Of a DNA stretch of 33,345 nucleotides, positions 3,566 to 25,847 are shown one piece after another. The notes under the pieces are model-generated. The model did not search any database and was not told the DNA's origin. It saw nothing but the letters and a program-made list of their open reading frames with translations. Position numbers and translations under genes: made by a program. Origin of the DNA: a virus; IMG/VR virus record IMGVR_UViG_3300017605_000308, positions 1-33,345 of that record. The stretch is one strand, 5' to 3'. Position 1 is the stretch's first letter. Each line of letters begins with the position of its first letter.

Positions 3566-4600
3566 TCACAGCTTGACGGCGCCCTTCTTGTCGCGCTGCT
3601 CGGGCCGGATACCCGGCACCTTGCACTTGGTCGCGTCGTTGCCCGGGAACAGGCGGGCCGCGATCGCACCCGGCGAAGGCTCGTCGTCACCGTACTCGGT
3701 GGACTTGAACTTCACGATGTCTCCGATGGACATCCAGTCCCCCGGGTTCTTGTCCGCGAACGCCTCCTGGATGTGCGCGGAGGTGTCGTGGCGCGCGCCG
3801 GGATCTCCGGCGGCCTTCGGCTTCGCCGCACCCGCCGGACTGGTGGCGGCCTTGCGGGTCACGGCGCGACCCTTCGCGGCCGCCGCAGCGGCGAGAACGA
3901 TCGGGTCGACCGTCGGAGCCTCGGTCTGCTCGTCGGAGGCCTTGTCCTTGTTCTCGGCCATCCAGTTGCGGTAGGCCAGGACCTGGCTGCTCAGCTCGTT
4001 CGCCTTCTCCTGGGCCTTGGTCGCCCAGTCCTCGGCAACGCCCTCCTCGGCTTCGAGCAGGTTGACGGACAGCATCAGGGCCGCCGCACGAGCGATGTGC
4101 GCCTCGGTCGGGTCGACCGGAGGCTTGCCGGCCGTCTCCTTGCGGGAGCCGGTCGACTTCAGGCCGTTCAGCAGCTCGAGGTAGCTGCGCGCGTCGAGGT
4201 ACTTGCCCTCCGTCATGGCCTCGGTCATCTTCTCGGTCAGCCACTCGCGGGCGTTGCCCTTGTAGCGGGTGCCCAGCGCGGTGTACGCCTGGGCGACCGG
4301 AGCGATGGTCGCGGCGGGCAGGGTGCCCGTGCTCTCGTCGCGGCTCTCGTCGGCCAGCGCGCCTTCGGCGGCCGCCGTGAAGACCTCGAACAGCTCCTTG
4401 TCGGACGGACCGGTCTCGGCCGGCTTCTCGTCCGCCTTGCTGGTGGAGTCCTCGGTGCTGGTCTCGGTGGTCGTGGCCTCCTCCGTGCTGGCCTCCTCGG
4501 CCTGCTCGGTGGACTCCTCGGCCTGCGCCTCGGCGGCCTCGTCGGTCGTCGCGGTCGTGTCTTCGGCCAGAACCTCGGTCTCGTCGATCTCGCGTGCCAT
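3566..4600 (-). CDS. acidic low-complexity protein with folded C-terminus
   Basis: ATG at 4598-4600 has GGAGG seven to eight bases upstream and gives 344 residues; a longer in-frame reading from 4645 lacks a ribosome site and would overlap the promoter. Residues 1-75 are almost only Glu, Ala, Thr and Ser (EAQAEESTEQAEEASTEEA) and must be disordered. A helical middle part (about 80-230) contains DKELFEVFTAAAEGALADES and similar segments. The last 75 residues form a compact domain (DTSAHIQEAFADKNPGDW, FKSTEYGDDEPSPGAIAARL) that resembles a winged-helix layout. It is a single-gene unit with its own HrdB-type promoter and terminator, so it is likely made in quantity. A DNA-binding or chromatin-like role is possible; no family recognised. 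Confidence 0.75.
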   Translation of the reverse strand: MAREIDETEVLAEDTTATTDEAAEAQAEESTEQAEEASTEEATTTETSTEDSTSKADEKPAETGPSDKELFEVFTAAAEGALADESRDESTGTLPAATIAPVAQAYTALGTRYKGNAREWLTEKMTEAMTEGKYLDARSYLELLNGLKSTGSRKETAGKPPVDPTEAHIARAAALMLSVNLLEAEEGVAEDWATKAQEKANELSSQVLAYRNWMAENKDKASDEQTEAPTVDPIVLAAAAAAKGRAVTRKAATSPAGAAKPKAAGDPGARHDTSAHIQEAFADKNPGDWMSIGDIVKFKSTEYGDDEPSPGAIAARLFPGNDATKCKVPGIRPEQRDKKGAVKL

Positions 4601-4924: not shown

Positions 4925-5326
4925 CTACACTGAAGGCTCGAAGTACGCCATCAGGTAATCGCGCAGAGAAGGTTCAGGGATGCCCTGCTTTTTGTGCTCC
5001 GCCCTCACTAGGATGTCGAAGTCAACAAAGATCTCAGTGTTGTCTTTCGACACCAGGCGGACGTTGTAGTCCTGGAACCACTTCTCCTGGCAGTCCGGGC
5101 ACATCGTCACGCCGTAGGCGAAGTGAGGCTCATCGTTGTGATCGCACTCACCAGGCTCCAGGTATGGGATGGAAACCCAGCGAAACGCAAGCTCATCGAT
5201 TGCCCAGAGAATCTCGCCCTCGTAGTCGCCGTATGGATCTTCGACTTCAAACAGGGGCTGCCTGGTCATGATGAAGGCAAGCGTGTCTTCGCACGAGACT
5301 GCCCACTCGCCCTGTTGGTCGAGCAC
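4925..5326 (-). CDS. hypothetical zinc-binding-like protein
   Basis: GTG at 5324-5326 is preceded by GAGGTG at five bases; 133 residues result. An alternative start is the ATG at residue 20 (MTRQPLFEVEDP). The middle holds CDHNDEPHFAYG then MCPDCQEKWF, so C-x-H plus C-x2-C could bind zinc. The C-terminal part contains a strand-helix pattern (EIFVDFDILVRAEHK). It lies 38 bases downstream of the tRNA-like element at 5364-5439 and may share its transcript. The family was not recognised. Confidence 0.65.
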   Translation of the reverse strand: MLDQQGEWAVSCEDTLAFIMTRQPLFEVEDPYGDYEGEILWAIDELAFRWVSIPYLEPGECDHNDEPHFAYGVTMCPDCQEKWFQDYNVRLVSKDNTEIFVDFDILVRAEHKKQGIPEPSLRDYLMAYFEPSV

Positions 5327-5389
5327 GGCTACACCTCGCTGGTTGATTGGATATTGCAGGTACGTGAGATTGACGGACTCGAACCGCCG

Positions 5390-5423
5390 CCCTCGTTTCG
5401 TCTTGTTTCACGTGAAACGAGGG
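5390..5423. terminator. hairpin after the 5445-6104 gene
   Basis: CCCTCGTTTC (5390-5399) pairs exactly with GAAACGAGGG (5414-5423) across 14 bases. It follows the stop of the leftward gene by 22 bases and so is a plausible terminator; it shares bases with the parS palindrome. Confidence 0.6.
5405..5418. promoter_or_regulatory. parS-like ParB-binding palindrome, copy 1
   Basis: GTTTCACGTGAAAC is present without mismatch. It equals the 14-bp parS consensus bound by chromosomal ParB in Streptomyces. A second exact copy lies at 6496-6509. Confidence 0.8.
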
Positions 5424-5444
5424 CCCACCTGAAACCCCATCTTA

Positions 5445-6104
5445 CTACTTGGCGCAGTACTCTTGCACGTTCTGCTCGTGTTTGATTGCGAGCCGTGCGG
5501 CCCGACGCATCTCGTCGGTGATCACGAAGTTAGCGGGCAGCTTGCCCTTCTTGTTTTTGCCCTTCGCGGTGGCCTGCTGGGCCTTCCCGCGAATGTAGGC
5601 GTCAACAAGGGCTGTGGGCATGGGTGCCCGACGGGTGCGGGTCGGTCGGTCGGATGCCGACGCTGGGCTGCCGTTGCTACGCACGGCGCCTCCTTTACGG
5701 GTGACGGGTGCGCGACCACGGACGATAGAGGGTAATGCCTCATCGCCCATTTCGACAGTCCGGATTGCATGGTTACTCGCGTTCTTGCGAGTGTACCAAT
5801 TCCCCTGGGAGTCTTTCTGTGGCGTGACTGAGAGGTCACGCTTCGGGTTGTGCAGGGGAACGATCGGCGAGGGTACCAGCACCTTGCAGCCGTCCGGAAT
5901 GGTCAGCGGCGAGGTGACGCCAGTACACCAGCCTGTGCTGGTGTCGGTAACCTCGGTGTAAGAGTTACCACCTTGGTCACGCACCTTGATCCGGTCAGGA
6001 TTCGCAACCAGCGGAATAAGACCGTCCCTGATCGGGTGCAGTCGGATTCCGCCCTTGCGAGACAAGCTCGGACCGTTCTGTGGGATATCGCTGTAATCTT
6101 CCAC
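5445..6104 (-). CDS. hypothetical protein with basic C-terminus
   Basis: The frame from GTG 6102-6104 gives 219 residues, but no ribosome site is visible there, so the start is uncertain. The N-terminal half is strand-rich (IRLHPIRDGLIPLVANPDRI, GCKVLVPSPIVPLHNP). Residues 125-190 are very basic (GRAPVTRKGGAVRSNG, KAQQATAKGKNKKGKLP) and could contact nucleic acid, and the end is helical (TDEMRRAARLAIKHEQNVQE). The gene lies between the 6139-6197 and 5390-5423 hairpins, thus a single-gene unit, and both parS copies are within 400 bases of its ends. No ParB-type domain can be seen. No family recognised. Confidence 0.65.
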   Translation of the reverse strand: MEDYSDIPQNGPSLSRKGGIRLHPIRDGLIPLVANPDRIKVRDQGGNSYTEVTDTSTGWCTGVTSPLTIPDGCKVLVPSPIVPLHNPKRDLSVTPQKDSQGNWYTRKNASNHAIRTVEMGDEALPSIVRGRAPVTRKGGAVRSNGSPASASDRPTRTRRAPMPTALVDAYIRGKAQQATAKGKNKKGKLPANFVITDEMRRAARLAIKHEQNVQEYCAK

Positions 6105-6138
6105 GCGCGCAGGCTGGCTACTGACGCCTGAGCTGCCC

Positions 6139-6197
6139 GCACAAGATCACGGATCGGATGGTGAAACAGAAGTGAAACTTGATCCGTGATCTTGTGC
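6139..6197. terminator. long hairpin, 17-bp perfect stem
   Basis: Positions 6139-6155 (GCACAAGATCACGGATC) pair exactly with 6181-6197 around a 25-base loop. It lies upstream of the 5445-6104 gene and would block leftward read-through into it. Confidence 0.75.
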
Positions 6198-6409
6198 GTC
6201 AAAACTGGGCCTGCGCGTTGCCTCGAAGGCTAATCCCTGGTCGACTCTAACGGGCCCAAAATACACCCGTGACTTGTCGCGCCAGGTTTCCCTTCGCGCT
6301 GGCTACGTTACTAGTCGGCCCGGCTTTTTCGAGAGTCCGGACTAGGCAGGCGCTACCTGCGAAGTCGGACTCCTGCACTAACTGACATCGGAGTACAGTC
6401 ACGACTACG

Positions 6410-6619
6410 ATGCCCGAGTGTGCGTACGAAGCCACGTGTCAGCCAACCTTCACGCTGGCCTGGGACTCGGCCACGTGCTACGGGAACAAGTCACCGTTTC
6501 ACGTGAAACCAAACTGCATCCCAGACCTTCGCCAGGCCCGGTACGCTCGACGTACTAGACTGAGTAGGGCACCAATGGCTGAGAATCCAGCTAATCCAGC
6601 GTTTACTGCGTGGCGGTAG
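6410..6619 (+). CDS. doubtful small Cys-containing protein
   Basis: ATG at 6410 opens 69 codons. The first 40 residues look protein-like, with four cysteines (PECAYEATCQPTFTLAW, SATCYGNKSPFHVKPNC), and third positions are G/C rich there. No ribosome site is present; a TACAGT ten bases upstream could be a -10 box of an almost leaderless message. The parS palindrome at 6496-6509 encodes part of it (FHVK), which may instead mean the frame is accidental. Confidence 0.3.
   Translation: MPECAYEATCQPTFTLAWDSATCYGNKSPFHVKPNCIPDLRQARYARRTRLSRAPMAENPANPAFTAWR
6496..6509. promoter_or_regulatory. parS-like ParB-binding palindrome, copy 2
   Basis: A second exact GTTTCACGTGAAAC, about 1.09 kb from copy 1. 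Unlike copy 1 it is not part of a larger hairpin, which supports selection for the palindrome itself. Confidence 0.8.
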
Positions 6620-8995: not shown

Positions 8996-9148
8996 TCAAG
9001 TTACGATTTGAGGCATTCCGTGCGCATTAGGGGGGAAGAATCCCAAACGGTCCGAATTGTGCTGGTCCGTCCCTTTTTCCGTGTCGCCTCGTTCCATGTC
9101 AAACATAGCGTATCTGACCTGGGACGGTTCACCCTTTCGGTTAGACAT
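8996..9148 (-). CDS. possible 50-residue protein
   Basis: ATG at 9146-9148 begins MSNRKGEPSQVRYAMFDMER, followed by GDTEKGTDQHNSDRLGFFPP and NAHGMPQIVT before TGA. The composition is like a small soluble protein and unlike random translation. The ribosome site (GGGTG) is weak. It is bordered by long gene-free DNA on the right. No family recognised. Confidence 0.42.
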   Translation of the reverse strand: MSNRKGEPSQVRYAMFDMERGDTEKGTDQHNSDRLGFFPPNAHGMPQIVT

Positions 9149-10168: not shown

Positions 10169-10232
10169 CGTGGCTGCGGAACCCCCGTCACGAAACCACC
10201 CCGTACACGGATGGGGTCGCGCCGGCCAACGC

Positions 10233-10418
10233 ATCCCCTATACATTTGTTCGAATGCCGTCAGTACGTCGAACCAGTCTTACCGCCGATAGTCGTTTAGG
10301 CCGTGGCCGAGCGGCTATCGGACGTAGAGCTTTGGGGCCAGCAGGGGTAGAATTTAGTAGGGTCGATGTGAACTTAATGTAGCGGTTTTCGGACGTATCC
10401 CCTATACATTTGTTCGAA
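10233..10418 (+). repeat. pair of exact 22-bp direct repeats
   Basis: A 22-base sequence with core CCCTATACATTTGTTCGA occurs at 10233-10254 and again at 10397-10418, 164 bases apart. The second copy ends 16 bases before the start codon of the 10435 gene. TATACA inside it could be a -10 box; a shared operator is the other reading. Confidence 0.6.
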
Positions 10419-13892: not shown

Positions 13893-14282
13893 TCAGACGA
13901 GCGGCTTGAACAGCAGTAACCCCGACGCTTCAAATGTCTGGGGTCTTGCGATCTTCGCCGCCTCGAGATCATTGTAGTGCAACCTCGTCGCGATGTCAAT
14001 TAGTGAGTCGTAGCGCGCGATTCTTGCGTTCGCCCTCGAGCCTTTTCGGTTTCGCATCCAATCTCGAAGGGCCTTCGCGCACAGTGGTCCATTGCACCTC
14101 AGGTTTCGCACGTGGCGAGTTCCGTGCTTGCGGCCCCGGAAGAGTTCGTTCTCGAGTTCGCGTCGAATATCGAGAACGACTCCCATGTCCTCGACGTGAA
14201 CATGAAGCTTCAAGAAGGGTACGTAGACATACTCGGGGGCGCTATCCTTCACGAAGACCGATCTGTCACTCACTGACGACAT
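13893..14282 (-). CDS. hypothetical protein in primase operon
   Basis: 129 residues from ATG 14280-14282; a GTG at 14271-14273 with GAGGT ten bases upstream is an equally good start. Both overlap the end of the 14266-16134 gene, so translation is coupled. The first 40 residues are strand-rich (YVYVPFLKLHVHVEDMGVVL), then a basic helical section (RNRKGSRANARIARYDS) and a helix (LIDIATRLHYNDLEAAKIA). The position behind the primase genes suggests a replication accessory function. The family was not recognised. Confidence 0.68.
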   Translation of the reverse strand: MSSVSDRSVFVKDSAPEYVYVPFLKLHVHVEDMGVVLDIRRELENELFRGRKHGTRHVRNLRCNGPLCAKALRDWMRNRKGSRANARIARYDSLIDIATRLHYNDLEAAKIARPQTFEASGLLLFKPLV

Positions 14283-16134
14283 ACCTCACAGTCGGTCGCC
14301 CGCCGGAGTTTGCTGCGGGCTGCACAAGTTCTCGTAGTCTGCCGATGATGACAAGGTTTTTGACGATCTCGAGGACCTGCTTGGTGTTCGCTGACCTTCG
14401 TATGCTCTGGTGAATGTCGCGCACGCTTGGGGCTTTCTGGTTTGCCTTGTAGTGCTTGGCCACGATGGCTATGACACGTTCTTCGAGTTGATTCTCGGGC
14501 GTGTCGGAGATCTCTTCCTTTACGACTCCATACGTTCGGAGTAGATACGGGAAGAGTGCGATGGCCTGGTCTACGATATTCGCGTCGACTTCGAGGGTCT
14601 GGAGATTGCAGGCGAACAGAACAAGCAGTTTCTTGTACAGAAGGTCTATGCGATTCAGGAGTGGCGACCCCGACAGCTCCATCATCCGCTTGGTTGGAAC
14701 GAGCGTCTCATGGAAGAAGTCGTCCCATTGCTTGAATCCGCTGTCGGTAAGGGCAATCATCTTGCTGGTGTCGGCCCAGCGATGTATGCCCTTTAGCATC
14801 TCGGCCGCCGCACCCAGATCGACGATGGTGCCGCCGATGGAGTGCTGCCTCTTAAGTTTACCGGACGCGAACACCCAGCGGTTCATGAACCCTGAAACCT
14901 CATCTGATCTTCCCAGGAGATTTCGAAGGCTTCCATCCTGCGTCGACGAGGTTACCTGGCCAAATGGAAGGTGTGCGACCCGCTCCCCGTGGGTGAGTGA
15001 TCCCGACCCGATCGTCTGGCTGGCGTCGTAGATCTCGATGAGTTGTGGCTTCATCGTTGATCCGACTCGATTTCCCATCGTGACGAGTGTCGCAAGTTCG
15101 TCGAAGTCGACCTGGGCCCTGACGGATGCATACCCAAGAATCTTCTTTGGGAAGGCTGGATCGGGGATAGGGGCAGAGAAGGCTCGAACGACATACTCGG
15201 CTGAGCCTGGTGAACTGATGTGCTTGGTCCCCGTACTCAGTGGATTGTCGTACTCGTATGGCATGACTTCCTGGACGACCCTATGCAGGTAGGATTTGGC
15301 CGACGACTTTCCGGCGCCAGATGGTCCGACGAAGCAGACAAAGAGATTTGGCACGACAGGGCGAGTGTCCTGGAGGGTCCTGTTTCTTCCGACGGCGAAA
15401 CCGATCGACATGAGCCCAGTCCAGAAGTGGTATTCTTCAGGACAGTCGTCAAGTGTCGTGGCATCGAGCCAGGCTCGGAGGAAGGTTTGTTCGGGCACGA
15501 TGGTGCGCCAGTCTATGACTGGTATGTTGGACTGCTTTTCTTCACGTTCTTCTTGCTCGACTTGCTGCTCAACAGCTGATGGTAGGACTCTCACGTTCTC
15601 CGGAGTTTGCACCGGGACTGGTGTCGTGACGGGCGCTTCGAGTACTGGAGCTATGATGGCGCCAGTGATTGACTTTACAAAGCCTAGTTCGACGCCAATT
15701 CGTTCACGAAGCTCGCGGAACTGGGATGGGTCGTTCTTGTAGTGCGGCACGTTGTAGCCGAAGTGCCAGGCCGCCATATCCCAGACGTCCCCGCCTTGGG
15801 CGCAGCCAGAGCAGTAGTAGACGTTCTTCTCTCTGTTCAACCACGCCGATGGGTGCTTGTCTGGATGCGCTGGGTTTGGGCATGATACCTTGATGCTTTC
15901 CTTGAGTCGGCCACCGCGTGTGTCCGGGCGCATTTTCTTGCACCAGCGGTTGTATGCGTCGACCACATCCATAGCTCGGATGGCTTGGTCAAGCTCATCG
16001 TCTTCTGGAGACTTCGTGTACTCGATGTCGGGTGCGTATTCACTCCAGTCTTTGGTCGCGGGAGTACTTGCAGCCTTCGCTGCTTCGTGCTCCTTTACCC
16101 TGCGAAGGAAGACTGAAGTGGTGTCGTCACTCAC
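14266..16134 (-). CDS. CHC2 zinc finger fused to P-loop ATPase (primase-helicase partner)
   Basis: 622 residues from ATG 16132-16134, overlapping the upstream AEP gene by eight bases. Residues 85-111 hold C-x4-H-x17-C-x2-C (SCPNPAHPDKHPS then YYCSGCAQGGDVWD), the CHC2 finger that recognises template in DnaG primases. A linker (about 155-205) leads to an ATPase domain with Walker A GPSGAGKSS (270-278) and Walker B VDFDE (342-346), like DUF3987-type helicase-related proteins. The C-terminus (about 530-622) looks like a winged helix (APSVRDIHQSIRRSANTKQV). No TOPRIM catalytic domain is present; the catalytic primase is supplied by the neighbour. Template binding and unwinding or primer hand-off is the inferred role. 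Confidence 0.82.
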   Translation of the reverse strand: MSDDTTSVFLRRVKEHEAAKAASTPATKDWSEYAPDIEYTKSPEDDELDQAIRAMDVVDAYNRWCKKMRPDTRGGRLKESIKVSCPNPAHPDKHPSAWLNREKNVYYCSGCAQGGDVWDMAAWHFGYNVPHYKNDPSQFRELRERIGVELGFVKSITGAIIAPVLEAPVTTPVPVQTPENVRVLPSAVEQQVEQEEREEKQSNIPVIDWRTIVPEQTFLRAWLDATTLDDCPEEYHFWTGLMSIGFAVGRNRTLQDTRPVVPNLFVCFVGPSGAGKSSAKSYLHRVVQEVMPYEYDNPLSTGTKHISSPGSAEYVVRAFSAPIPDPAFPKKILGYASVRAQVDFDELATLVTMGNRVGSTMKPQLIEIYDASQTIGSGSLTHGERVAHLPFGQVTSSTQDGSLRNLLGRSDEVSGFMNRWVFASGKLKRQHSIGGTIVDLGAAAEMLKGIHRWADTSKMIALTDSGFKQWDDFFHETLVPTKRMMELSGSPLLNRIDLLYKKLLVLFACNLQTLEVDANIVDQAIALFPYLLRTYGVVKEEISDTPENQLEERVIAIVAKHYKANQKAPSVRDIHQSIRRSANTKQVLEIVKNLVIIGRLRELVQPAANSGGRPTVRYVVSE

Positions 16135-17005
16135 CCTCGTACCGCCAGATGTTATCCGTGGTGAGCGCTTCGATGGAGTCCATCGGAACGAAGTCCGACA
16201 TCGCTGTGCGCATGTCGATGAAGAAGCACGAGTCCTTCGGCGAGCGAAGGTTGCGCCCCAGTGGAAGTCGCATGAGATTACCCAACTGGGTTGAGTCGAG
16301 TGAGTCCTGCTTCGGATAGATCTCGACGTTCAGATTGGCCAGGTTCGCGATTGGATCATCTTGACAGCCCGCCTTGACGGCGTCAAACCTGAACCAGTTA
16401 TTGCCCTTGAAGAGGGAATACCCCGCAGCCTCTAGAGCTATCTGGGCACCCTTCCGCGCGTGCTCGCACGACACAAGTCCCGTGAACCCGTACACGTGGA
16501 TACCTTTTGAGCCGGAGTATGCAACGGCGACCGGGATACTCAGTTGATCCGTGACGGCGCGGGCAATGCTGCTAGCGGCCATCTTCATCTGAAGCTTGAT
16601 GACGTCGCGGCCGGGCCCCTGTTTTCTTGAGGCCCAGTGCTCCCGAAGTTCTACATCCTTCCATCCGACATAGTCGATTCCGAACTTCGCGTCGGGGAGG
16701 CGGCCGACCTTTTCGAGATCGATGTCGAATGCAAACAGCTTGACCTTATTGTCTTGGCTCACCATGTAGTGACCGAAGGTCTGTTCGCCCCGGAGGTGGG
16801 CGAGGAGGGAGGGCATGTCGAACTTGTTATCTCGCTGTGGTCTGTATTCGCCGTCTGGGAGCTGAATGGCTCGCACATCAGACCGTGCAATGAACTTACT
16901 GGCGAAAAGCTTGGCGATAGCCTTCGCCGCGTTTTCTTCCACGCAGCCTCCCGTTGTGGATTTATCGTATTGGGGGCAGAAAGAAACAGTAGTCATAATT
17001 CTCAT
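16127..17005 (-). CDS. archaeo-eukaryotic-type primase (AEP)
   Basis: 292 residues from ATG 17003-17005 (a second ATG three codons on is possible). The AEP catalytic motifs are visible: FAFDIDLEK with DID at 94-96 for metal binding, SGSKGIHVYGFTG at 164-176 (the S-x-H motif, His170), and LNVEIYPKQ with Glu228 as third acidic motif, followed by GNLMRLPLG. The pair EIxPKQ and GNLxRLPLG is typical of the AEP branch found in TOTE-type operons and several phages. It should synthesise primers for DNA replication, and perhaps longer products. It starts the leftward replication operon and overlaps the CHC2/ATPase gene. Confidence 0.88.
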   Translation of the reverse strand: MRIMTTVSFCPQYDKSTTGGCVEENAAKAIAKLFASKFIARSDVRAIQLPDGEYRPQRDNKFDMPSLLAHLRGEQTFGHYMVSQDNKVKLFAFDIDLEKVGRLPDAKFGIDYVGWKDVELREHWASRKQGPGRDVIKLQMKMAASSIARAVTDQLSIPVAVAYSGSKGIHVYGFTGLVSCEHARKGAQIALEAAGYSLFKGNNWFRFDAVKAGCQDDPIANLANLNVEIYPKQDSLDSTQLGNLMRLPLGRNLRSPKDSCFFIDMRTAMSDFVPMDSIEALTTDNIWRYEGE

Positions 17006-17216: not shown

Positions 17217-17270
17217 TTGGTATTATCGGTGGATTGTGTTAGTTGCCTAGTGTTATGCATACTGACAGGC

Positions 17271-18761
17271 ATGGATCTTTGGGCGCGGCAACCGATGCAG
17301 ATAATTGACGAGGCTCTCTTCGAGGGCTTTCGTGGATTTACTTGGCATATCGGTTACGCCATGGCGAAGAAGATAGACCCACTCGCCAAGATGAGAATGC
17401 GGGCGCTCCCATATGGCCAGGACATCCGCATCATGCTCATCGACTTTGCCGGCGCTCCGGAGTACGGACTCTTTAGCAGGTACGACAAGCCACTCGCCGT
17501 TTACCCCACCTGGTCCCCAGGCGAGCCCCAGGATCTTCTGATTGAGTTAGCTGCATACAATGTCGGCGAGGACGAGGACATCTGCGGCAACAAGTCTGTT
17601 CGCCCGGAGCATCGCCCAGTACTCGGCCAGAAGCACCGCGTTGTTGTGCATCGTCTCGATGAGTGCGATGACAAGCACACCCTTCTCAAGTTCATCACCG
17701 AGACGCAGAAGACCTACCCTGACTGCGAGATCTTTGTTTCGGGCCTTACGAGCTTTGACCATATCTTCAGCTGGGGCCTTAAGGCTTGTGACTTCAGGCC
17801 GTCGTGCTTCTCGGGCTACCAGATCCTCCCCCGGGTTACTCTACCGTCGGGTAGGACTCTTATCCATAGTCTCCACATGCAGACCAGTCTGTTCGACCCA
17901 AGGTACAGTGATTGGTTTGACCTGCTTGGAATCTCGCAGCTCGAGATGATGGAAGCTTTGGCTCGCGGACGAAAGAAGATGTTTCCGCGATTCACTCTTA
18001 GGTCGGCCCAATGGGCAAGGCGAAACTACTCACTTGTGGAGCCGTTTGCCCTGGATCGCAAGACGCGGCGCAAGGAGAGTTTCTCTTTGAGCGAGGGACT
18101 CATATCTGTACCCAATGACGCTTTCGTTCTTCCAGCTACCCGCAGAAGGGTCATGCGGAACATAGGCATGGAGCTTGGCGAGCTTGACAAGTTCATGTGC
18201 GATACATGTATACTTCAGAATGCCTGCACCCTGTATCGAGAGGGTGCGGTCTGTGGATTGAAGGGGAGTGACGGCGTGGGACTCTCCGACGCATTCGGAA
18301 GCCGTAGCGCTGACCGCATCATCGATGGCCTTGGTGAACTGCTCAAGAAGCAGGCCGATCGGCTTGAGGATGCCATGGCAGCAGAGGATGCCGGCGATCC
18401 GAGCAGTGACGTGACCAAGCAGCTTAACTCGCTATTCGGCAATGCCGTGAAGCTTGCGAAGCTTGTGGATCCAGCCCTCGCCGGCGGATCCAAGGTGCAG
18501 GTCAACATCGGCGTGGGAGCTGGTGGAAATGCTGCAATCGTGGCTTCGCAGGACCCCAGGCAGATCACGGCACAGATCGTGCGTGAACTCGAGTCGCAGG
18601 GAATTCCTCGCGACAAGATAACAGGCCAGATGATCGCTGGCTACTTCGAGAGCATGGGTCTTGGCACCACCAAGAAACAGGCCATCACTGCCGCAAAGGT
18701 CGTCGCCGAGGAGTCGGCCATCGTTCCGAAGGTTATCGAGGGCGAGGCAGAGGCGGCATGA
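17271..18761 (+). CDS. putative terminase small subunit-like protein, long form
   Basis: ATG 17271 gives 496 residues; a TTG at 17217 in frame would add 18 residues that look unnatural. No good ribosome site is seen, and a CATACT box just upstream may make the message nearly leaderless. Residues 1-280 form a large unknown domain (IRIMLIDFAGAPEYGLFSRY, EIFVSGLTSFDHIFSWGLKA). Around residue 310 a Cys cluster FMCDTCILQNACTLYREGAV with CGL after it could bind metal. The C-terminal third is helical with a glycine-rich link (VQVNIGVGAGGNAAIV) and ends in a helix-turn-helix-like part (IPRDKITGQMIAGYFESMGL). The ATGA overlap with the large terminase supports a packaging role. Recognition is by position, not by family. 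Confidence 0.55.
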   Translation: MDLWARQPMQIIDEALFEGFRGFTWHIGYAMAKKIDPLAKMRMRALPYGQDIRIMLIDFAGAPEYGLFSRYDKPLAVYPTWSPGEPQDLLIELAAYNVGEDEDICGNKSVRPEHRPVLGQKHRVVVHRLDECDDKHTLLKFITETQKTYPDCEIFVSGLTSFDHIFSWGLKACDFRPSCFSGYQILPRVTLPSGRTLIHSLHMQTSLFDPRYSDWFDLLGISQLEMMEALARGRKKMFPRFTLRSAQWARRNYSLVEPFALDRKTRRKESFSLSEGLISVPNDAFVLPATRRRVMRNIGMELGELDKFMCDTCILQNACTLYREGAVCGLKGSDGVGLSDAFGSRSADRIIDGLGELLKKQADRLEDAMAAEDAGDPSSDVTKQLNSLFGNAVKLAKLVDPALAGGSKVQVNIGVGAGGNAAIVASQDPRQITAQIVRELESQGIPRDKITGQMIAGYFESMGLGTTKKQAITAAKVVAEESAIVPKVIEGEAEAA

Positions 18762-24602: not shown

Positions 24603-25847
24603 ATGAACCTCAACGTTGGCCTGGCTGGTCCGGCCGCCGCAGGTGCCCTCACTGGGGGCGGCGGTGTGCCGGGGCAGCATGGCTCGCCGATCGGGCAGGA
24701 CCGGCTCGTGCGCAAGGAGGTGTCTCTCGGTCTGATCCGTGAGATCGTTCCTCCCGAGACGCACATCGGCCTTCAGCTCTTCCCGTTCCTGGAAGTCGCC
24801 ACCGACGACGTGATCTTCAACTACGCCCTGGGCATGACCGATGGTCTGGCCCCGGCGCGTGCCGAGGACGCCGAGTCCGAACTCGCCCAGAAGGACGACA
24901 CGTTCGCCACCGAGGGCCGCGCGTCGGTCATCGACTGGGCCGTCAAGGACCACTACACGGCCAGCGACGTGAGTCGCTATCGGGAGTGGCTCAACATCCT
25001 CGAGACCATGCGCGACAGTCGGGCCCTGCCCCTCACGGCCTCGTCGGCCACCGAGGGCTTCCAGGACCGGCTCGCGAAGGACACGCTCCGGCGCCGGCGG
25101 AAGCTGGACAACCGGCTCGAGTGGCTCACGATGACCACGCTGTCCGCCGGCACGATCACGTACAACGACGGCAAGATCAAGTTCACGGTCGACTACGGGC
25201 GGCCCACCGGCCAGCAGATGGTGCTCGGCACCACCACGCTGGTAGGCGGCGTCTCGGGTTACCCGCTGGGCGCGGTCTGGTCAGGCACGACCGGTGACCC
25301 GATCAAGGACATCCAGTCGATCCAGAACCACGCTTACGACACGTACGGCGTCCGCATCACGCGGGCCGTCGCGAGTCGCAAGGCGCTCAACCAGCTGCTG
25401 AACAGCGACAAGTTCGTCGCGCGGTCCGGCCTGGTCGTCGCCTCGGGTGGCACCACGATCGACCCGAAGTACCTGATCGACGGCTGGGGTCCGCTCGCGG
25501 CCCAGGCCGTGGTCGAGTCCCAGACGGGCCTGAAGTTCATCGAGTACGACTCGGTGTATCGGACCCGCCCGGTCGGCTCGAACACGGTCACGATCAACCG
25601 CTTCCTCCCGCAGAACCGCATCATCTTCCTGCCGGACGAGGCGGACGTCGCCGAGTTCGACGACACGGGCATCGGGTTCGGCAAGGTCCTGACCTCGCCG
25701 CACCCGGCCGGCAACTGGACCGCCGGCTTCTACGAGTGGGAGCGGGACTACGGTGTCGACCCCTGGGGTTACGACACCGGTACGGGCATCAAGGCCTTCC
25801 CGGTCTTCACGCACATGGACCTGTCGTACGCGCTGGACGTGTACTAG
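24603..25847 (+). CDS. major capsid protein, gpE family type
   Basis: 414 residues from ATG 24603, following GGAGGG. Features of the lambda gpE/HK97-fold family include LIREIVPPETHIGLQLFPFL, IKFTVDYGRPTGQQMVLGTT and TTIDPKYLIDGWGPLAAQAV, and the late segment RIIFLPDEADVAEFDDTGIG. It should build the icosahedral shell. Strong G/C third positions and a dedicated hairpin directly after the stop fit very high expression. The N-terminal 30 residues are Gly-rich and flexible. Confidence 0.9.
   Translation: MNLNVGLAGPAAAGALTGGGGVPGQHGSPIGQDRLVRKEVSLGLIREIVPPETHIGLQLFPFLEVATDDVIFNYALGMTDGLAPARAEDAESELAQKDDTFATEGRASVIDWAVKDHYTASDVSRYREWLNILETMRDSRALPLTASSATEGFQDRLAKDTLRRRRKLDNRLEWLTMTTLSAGTITYNDGKIKFTVDYGRPTGQQMVLGTTTLVGGVSGYPLGAVWSGTTGDPIKDIQSIQNHAYDTYGVRITRAVASRKALNQLLNSDKFVARSGLVVASGGTTIDPKYLIDGWGPLAAQAVVESQTGLKFIEYDSVYRTRPVGSNTVTINRFLPQNRIIFLPDEADVAEFDDTGIGFGKVLTSPHPAGNWTAGFYEWERDYGVDPWGYDTGTGIKAFPVFTHMDLSYALDVY

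Follow-up and report, generated by a model that had tools for sequence, protein, structure and literature searches.

Two exact copies of a bacterial chromosomal parS site in a tailed-phage genome fragment: candidate sites for recruitment of host ParB

ParB/parS is the main bacterial system for chromosome segregation and SMC loading, and its chromosomal parS sites are located near oriC. The window, i.e., the whole stretch of DNA analysed here, is an IMG/VR virus fragment of 33,345 bases. It contains the palindrome GTTTCACGTGAAAC with zero mismatches at 5405-5418 and at 6496-6509, both sites having the exact core of a ParB-type parS, and these are the sole copies in the record. The first-pass annotation of this DNA had pointed out both palindromes and considered them beyond chance, with about 0.0001 copies expected; under a second-order Markov model the expectation for the window is 6.9e-5 copies, in agreement with that estimate. 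Read backwards as a control, GTTTCACGTGAAAC has 0 copies in the window, and the next-best match to the palindrome itself (9091-9104) has 3 mismatches.

The phage and the surroundings of the two sites

No relatives at the DNA level were found among 50,697 phage records. At the protein level the relatives are siphophages infecting Gordonia, Tsukamurella, Rhodococcus and Nocardia, with identities of 27-30% for the terminase small subunit, ~44% for the portal, 54% for the major capsid protein and ~31% for the helicase. As complete relatives measure ~72-84 kb, the window covers under half of the phage. Judged from these protein relatives, the host probably belongs to the same group of soil-type bacteria; signs of a Streptomyces phage were not visible among the gene and protein matches in the window. 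Annotation with PHROGs identified terminase, portal, protease, capsid and tail genes, as well as a helicase and a primase. Leftward genes occupy 1-6.1 kb, including a conserved gene (phrog_6708, 3566-4600, minus strand), and are followed by a mostly noncoding stretch, small genes, the replicative helicase gene (phrog_5311, 14266-16134, minus strand), the DNA primase gene (phrog_5362, 16127-17005, minus strand) and the rightward terminase and structural genes, of which the terminase small subunit (17217-18761, plus strand) is the first. The major capsid protein (24603-25847, plus strand) served for gathering relatives: an alignment of capsid proteins found them in IMG/VR, where the small terminase, used as a single query protein, yielded none. 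A capsid profile search of bacterial genomes found no related prophages.

Two leftward ORFs without a family match flank the first parS copy, which lies in the gap that separates them, 79 bp upstream of where the small ORF at 4925-5326 (minus strand) starts; the other ORF (5445-6104, minus strand) is located between the two copies. The second copy is found in the largely noncoding stretch past 6104, where a plus-strand ORF of 69 aa (6410-6619) overlaps it. An extended palindrome is absent around the window sites. Between them there is a perfect 18-bp inverted repeat (6138-6199; DNA fold z -6.6). Its loop contains two direct copies of the half-site GTGAAAC (6161-6167 and 6172-6178), lone parS half-sites numbering only four window-wide, and the repeat may be part of the parS system. 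A sub-threshold match to an Rfam miRNA at 6137-6199 was dismissed as merely a long inverted repeat.

On the minus strand, a tRNA-like fold with a good T-arm (GGTTCGAGTCC) overlaps the first parS copy (5364-5445). A tRNA gene at this place was rejected, as ARAGORN predicted none and the match to tRNA-Sec is weak (20.8 bits vs. a cut-off of 47); the fold is possibly a decayed tRNA or an attachment-site remnant. The minus-strand RNA near the second copy (6440-6560) has an unusually stable fold (z -3.96). Elsewhere in the window, two direct repeats of 26 bp (10229-10254 and 10393-10418) are 96% identical and spaced 164 bp.

Host chromosomes, related phages and the search for partition genes

Exact copies of GTTTCACGTGAAAC occur in 56 of the 61 genomes of Tomitella's GTDB family (Mycobacteriales), with 1-9 copies each that are mostly clustered within a few kb where positions are listed; the reversed control gives 0 in all 61. 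The same sequence is given as the M. smegmatis parS in a review (PMC7022226), and the phage site is thus the one found in the chromosomes of the likely host group. Further copies were counted in one Streptomyces genome (16) and in one Arthrobacter genome (8). The initial description of the sites as Streptomyces-type is therefore too narrow, M. smegmatis and most genomes sampled from the Mycobacteriales family carrying them too. An attribution of the phage to Streptomyces is not supported by its protein relatives, which infect the four genera named above.

Searches for the ParB and ParA families were positive in most control genomes. ParB_N (PF02195) was found neither in the window nor in Woes, Orchid, TIN2, Katyusha or Hotorobo; HTH_ParB (PF17762) was absent from Woes, Orchid and the uncultivated relatives G021 and G027, and no ParA-type AAA_31 match was obtained in the window or in eight relatives (including Woes, Orchid, Gibbles and Shelley). 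Neither the ParB gene nor the ParA gene of a self-contained phage parABS system was detected in the window, itself a partial genome, or in the complete site-bearing relatives, in line with the first-pass annotation, to which none was visible. Its suggestion that ParB may be encoded elsewhere is not supported by the complete genomes of Woes and Orchid, where none was found. Segregation of a plasmid-like state, proposed at the same time, finds no direct support: the passages on cluster CS (Woes) in PMC5559632 describe it without integrase, parABS, repressor or temperate features, and those on CX report integrase-like genes for which attP sites were not found. A tyrosine recombinase was found in Orchid and Gibbles, whereas the same search gave none for Woes, Shelley and the window.

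Among 19 relatives found via terminase, helicase, portal or capsid, two contain exact copies of the site, namely Orchid (78481 and 79446 of 80650) and Woes (71020 and 71441 of 73752). Gibbles and Shelley have two exact copies apiece, TIN2 has one site with one mismatch, G027 has one exact copy, and G021 (78,971 bases, capsid 68% identical to that of the window) has six exact copies (61731-66251) that span 4.5 kb. The backwards control gives 0 in every relative record. The site-bearing Woes, Orchid, G021 and G027 are kin of the window at the protein level, with no DNA in common. Exact sites are missing from 17 of the 19 relatives and from 43 of the 46 capsid-related IMG/VR records, many of which are fragments and which include several cultured phages over again. 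A 54-bp segment around the first Woes site is kept in 19 records (18 phages). Guillaume, classed in the species of Woes and isolated on an identical host, has no exact sites, and its gaps homologous to the site gaps of Woes contain other hairpins; the absence of sites in this phage indicates that plaques can form on G. terrae without them. As most relatives are without sites, their role appears to be optional or host-dependent. The palindromes, whose retention in related phages had been named as a check, are kept in Woes, Orchid, Gibbles, Shelley, G021 and G027, and are missing from the majority.

Position and sequence context of the sites

In the window, Woes and G021, every site is located between phrog_6708 and the helicase. 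The window protein encoded at 3566-4600 (minus strand) has homologs in Woes (gp88, 34% identity, E 2e-35) and G021 (34%, E 2e-23). The G027 site apparently occupies the same interval, with a weak and partial match to phrog_6708, and in Orchid the left boundary gene differs (DUF932), the sites being at the corresponding place beside the helicase. With one site counted per lineage, placement in that interval by chance has a probability of ~1e-5, a value that is indicative only, as the intervals were picked after the sites had been seen. The phrog_6708 protein was considered as a partner of the sites, a candidacy weakened by its presence in site-less phages.

The linear genomes of Woes and Orchid end in direct repeats (184 bp in Woes, 249 bp in Orchid), and their sites lie 1.2-2.7 kb off the right end. 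Cumulative GC skew reaches its minimum at ~5.0-5.5 kb in the window, at 69 kb in Woes and at 77 kb in Orchid, and in all three the sites are within ~2 kb of this minimum. Such a location would fit the biology of parS, since chromosomal parS is near oriC, but gene orientation also shapes the skew and the site-less Hotorobo has its minimum there too.

The local context of the sites is variable. Perfect palindromes of 30-36 bp, situated in intergenic units, are centred on both Woes sites and on one Orchid site, and sister units in Orchid, Hotorobo and Guillaume contain hairpins without the parS core. In G021, four of the six sites lie within leftward ORFs and two outside, and in MrWormie one flank substitution breaks the outer palindrome with the core unchanged. 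Because the contexts differ between the window, Woes/Orchid and G021, we regard the 14-bp core as the common factor, rather than a hairpin or promoter setting; the distribution of the G021 sites inside and outside ORFs likewise indicates that the 14-mer itself is kept. The intergenic units are repeated (Orchid, L168: 78006, 78472, 78861; Woes, L149: 71009, 71433; also Guillaume, L151). Their flanks are conserved and the hairpin at their centre varies, parS being one filling among several; they stand directly ahead of the ribosome site of the leftward gene that follows.

Host ParB as the probable partner, and its alternatives

We consider it probable, at roughly two in three, that the two palindromes act as nucleation sites recruiting the chromosomal ParB of the host and, through ParB, also ParA/SMC. 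The lack of recognisable phage partition genes, together with relatives that keep sites at a like position, fits such recruitment. Binding by ParB, and a benefit that lies in positioning rather than titration, are what we infer here from the sequences.

The same binding could serve a different end, in which the main effect of the sites is titration of host ParB (and SMC) away from the chromosome, which would disturb segregation or free factors. Since host genomes have 1-9 copies, a replicating phage with 2-6 would soon exceed them, and G021 carries six; in addition, Woes is without lysogeny genes by the published annotation (PMC5559632), so that segregation is no obvious need. However, both M. 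smegmatis and C. glutamicum can live without ParB (PMC7022226), which leaves the gain unclear, and the position of the sites is kept although a pure decoy needs no fixed place in the genome. Titration as the main role seems unlikely to us. A ParB-like protein encoded on the missing part of the genome, reading the sites as part of a self-contained partition system, is highly improbable. More than half of the genome lies outside the contig, a divergent ParB could sit on the remainder, and other actinophages do encode parABS (PMC7157519), but the complete, site-bearing Woes and Orchid have no match to ParB_N, HTH_ParB or ParA, and the known actinophage parS sites are arrays of 8-bp direct repeats, not a 14-bp palindrome (PMC7157519).

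Alternatively, host ParB or a phage regulator might bind the sites and repress or roadblock the leftward early genes: the first window copy, both Woes sites and the Orchid site at 78481 are 58-80 bp upstream of leftward start codons, and for P. aeruginosa the title of PMC5521831 reports repression of nearby promoters by ParB. Yet other sites are 330-390 bp off or inside ORFs and a promoter match was not found at the sites, and we hold an operator to be quite unlikely. Very unlikely, too, is that the palindromes act in the leftward transcripts as stem-loops, be it for termination, RNA stabilisation or processing, with only a secondary likeness to parS. Three of the four Woes and Orchid sites do centre the long intergenic palindromes described above, other hairpins occupy the sister units in Orchid, Hotorobo and Guillaume, and in the window copy 1 part-overlaps an 11-bp stem and copy 2 lies in the stable minus-strand fold. 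Against this, there is no T-tract, with no terminator-like match at the window sites and no T run after the Woes and Orchid palindromes; the identical 14-mer recurs in non-homologous DNA; most G021 sites are inside ORFs and without long extended arms; MrWormie keeps the core where the arm is broken; and 28 bits of identity with the host parS would be left unexplained. The terminator and operator readings were both ranked lower because of the G021 sites inside ORFs.

If host ParB is recruited, host ParB-CTP would load at the sites when phage DNA enters the cell and slide along it, and a partition complex would form near the putative origin or terminal region of the phage. ParB could then couple the phage genome to host ParA, and with it to positioning at the nucleoid and pole, as well as to the loading of SMC, so that the infecting or replicating genome would be placed and organised; with rising phage copy number, the sites would also pull ParB off the few parS of the host. 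ParA positioning, SMC loading and spreading are established ParB biology that we carry over to the phage and that may apply by analogy.

As in the chromosomal ParABS/parS systems of Actinobacteria (M. smegmatis, C. glutamicum, Streptomyces), the identical 14-bp site is present in several copies within a few kb, near a GC-skew minimum; unlike those systems, it is phage-borne, lacks recognisable parA/parB and is optional among close relatives. The concept of parS hijacking has a precedent in SGI1: ParB from the ParABS system of its IncC helper plasmid binds two parS-like sites on this element (PMC10954446). Similarly, the window has two sites identical to the parS of another replicon, without a recognisable ParB of its own, and may use that replicon's ParB in trans. 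SGI1 differs in being an integrative element that exploits a plasmid system, as established by experiment, whereas the window is a tailed phage with the site of a chromosome system, known from sequence alone. Phages with their own parABS are known as well (PMC7157519): the prophages RedRock, Miko and Gordonia subcluster A15 are similar in being actinobacterial phages with centromere-like sites, and differ in having their own ParA and ParB, a parS of 8-bp direct repeats and extrachromosomal lysogeny. The Gordonia phages of Woesvirus (CS3) and Orchidvirus (CX) share with the window two exact copies in the same interval and no ParAB; they differ in that their sites are mostly in extended intergenic palindromes, and have no DNA-level similarity to the window. 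The sections of PMC5559632 on Woes and Orchid make no mention of these sites, and in the literature searched, which is mostly non-subscription and hence no proof of novelty, there is no report of host-chromosome parS without ParB in phages.

A scan of IMG/VR found GTTTCACGTGAAAC in at least 120 stretches, and 17 among the 120 matches listed hold at least 2 copies, with varied spacing. The control palindromes TTGTCACGTGACAA and TTTGCACGTGCAAA occur in 72 and 88 stretches over all IMG/VR, and their multi-site contigs are mostly one repeat family with 207-bp spacing for the former and number 2 for the latter; with at least 120 stretches for parS, its enrichment over these controls is a lower bound. 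The whole records of the 17 multi-site contigs contain 2-6 copies (control 0) and no ParB_N, many being fragments of which some may carry ParB off contig. The unrelated contigs L018, L030, L075, L088 and L103 have 3-6 exact copies, mostly tightly clustered, and no ParB_N. By their terminase, portal or DNA polymerase, several of the 17 belong to other lineages of tailed phages, and one is similar to a phage recorded from Gammaproteobacteria, which suggests a wider strategy. We tentatively propose, at somewhat less than even odds, that ParB-less clusters of the near-universal bacterial parS evolved recurrently in unrelated tailed phages, and load host ParB (and SMC) as if they were a host origin region. 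If true, phages without lysogeny or partition genes would exploit the ParB/parS system of the host in trans during infection. Woes and Guillaume, with and without sites in the same species and on the same host, offer a cultured pair for comparison, Orchid and Gibbles are further cultured carriers of the sites, and such phages would be natural reporters for tracking phage DNA with fluorescent host ParB.
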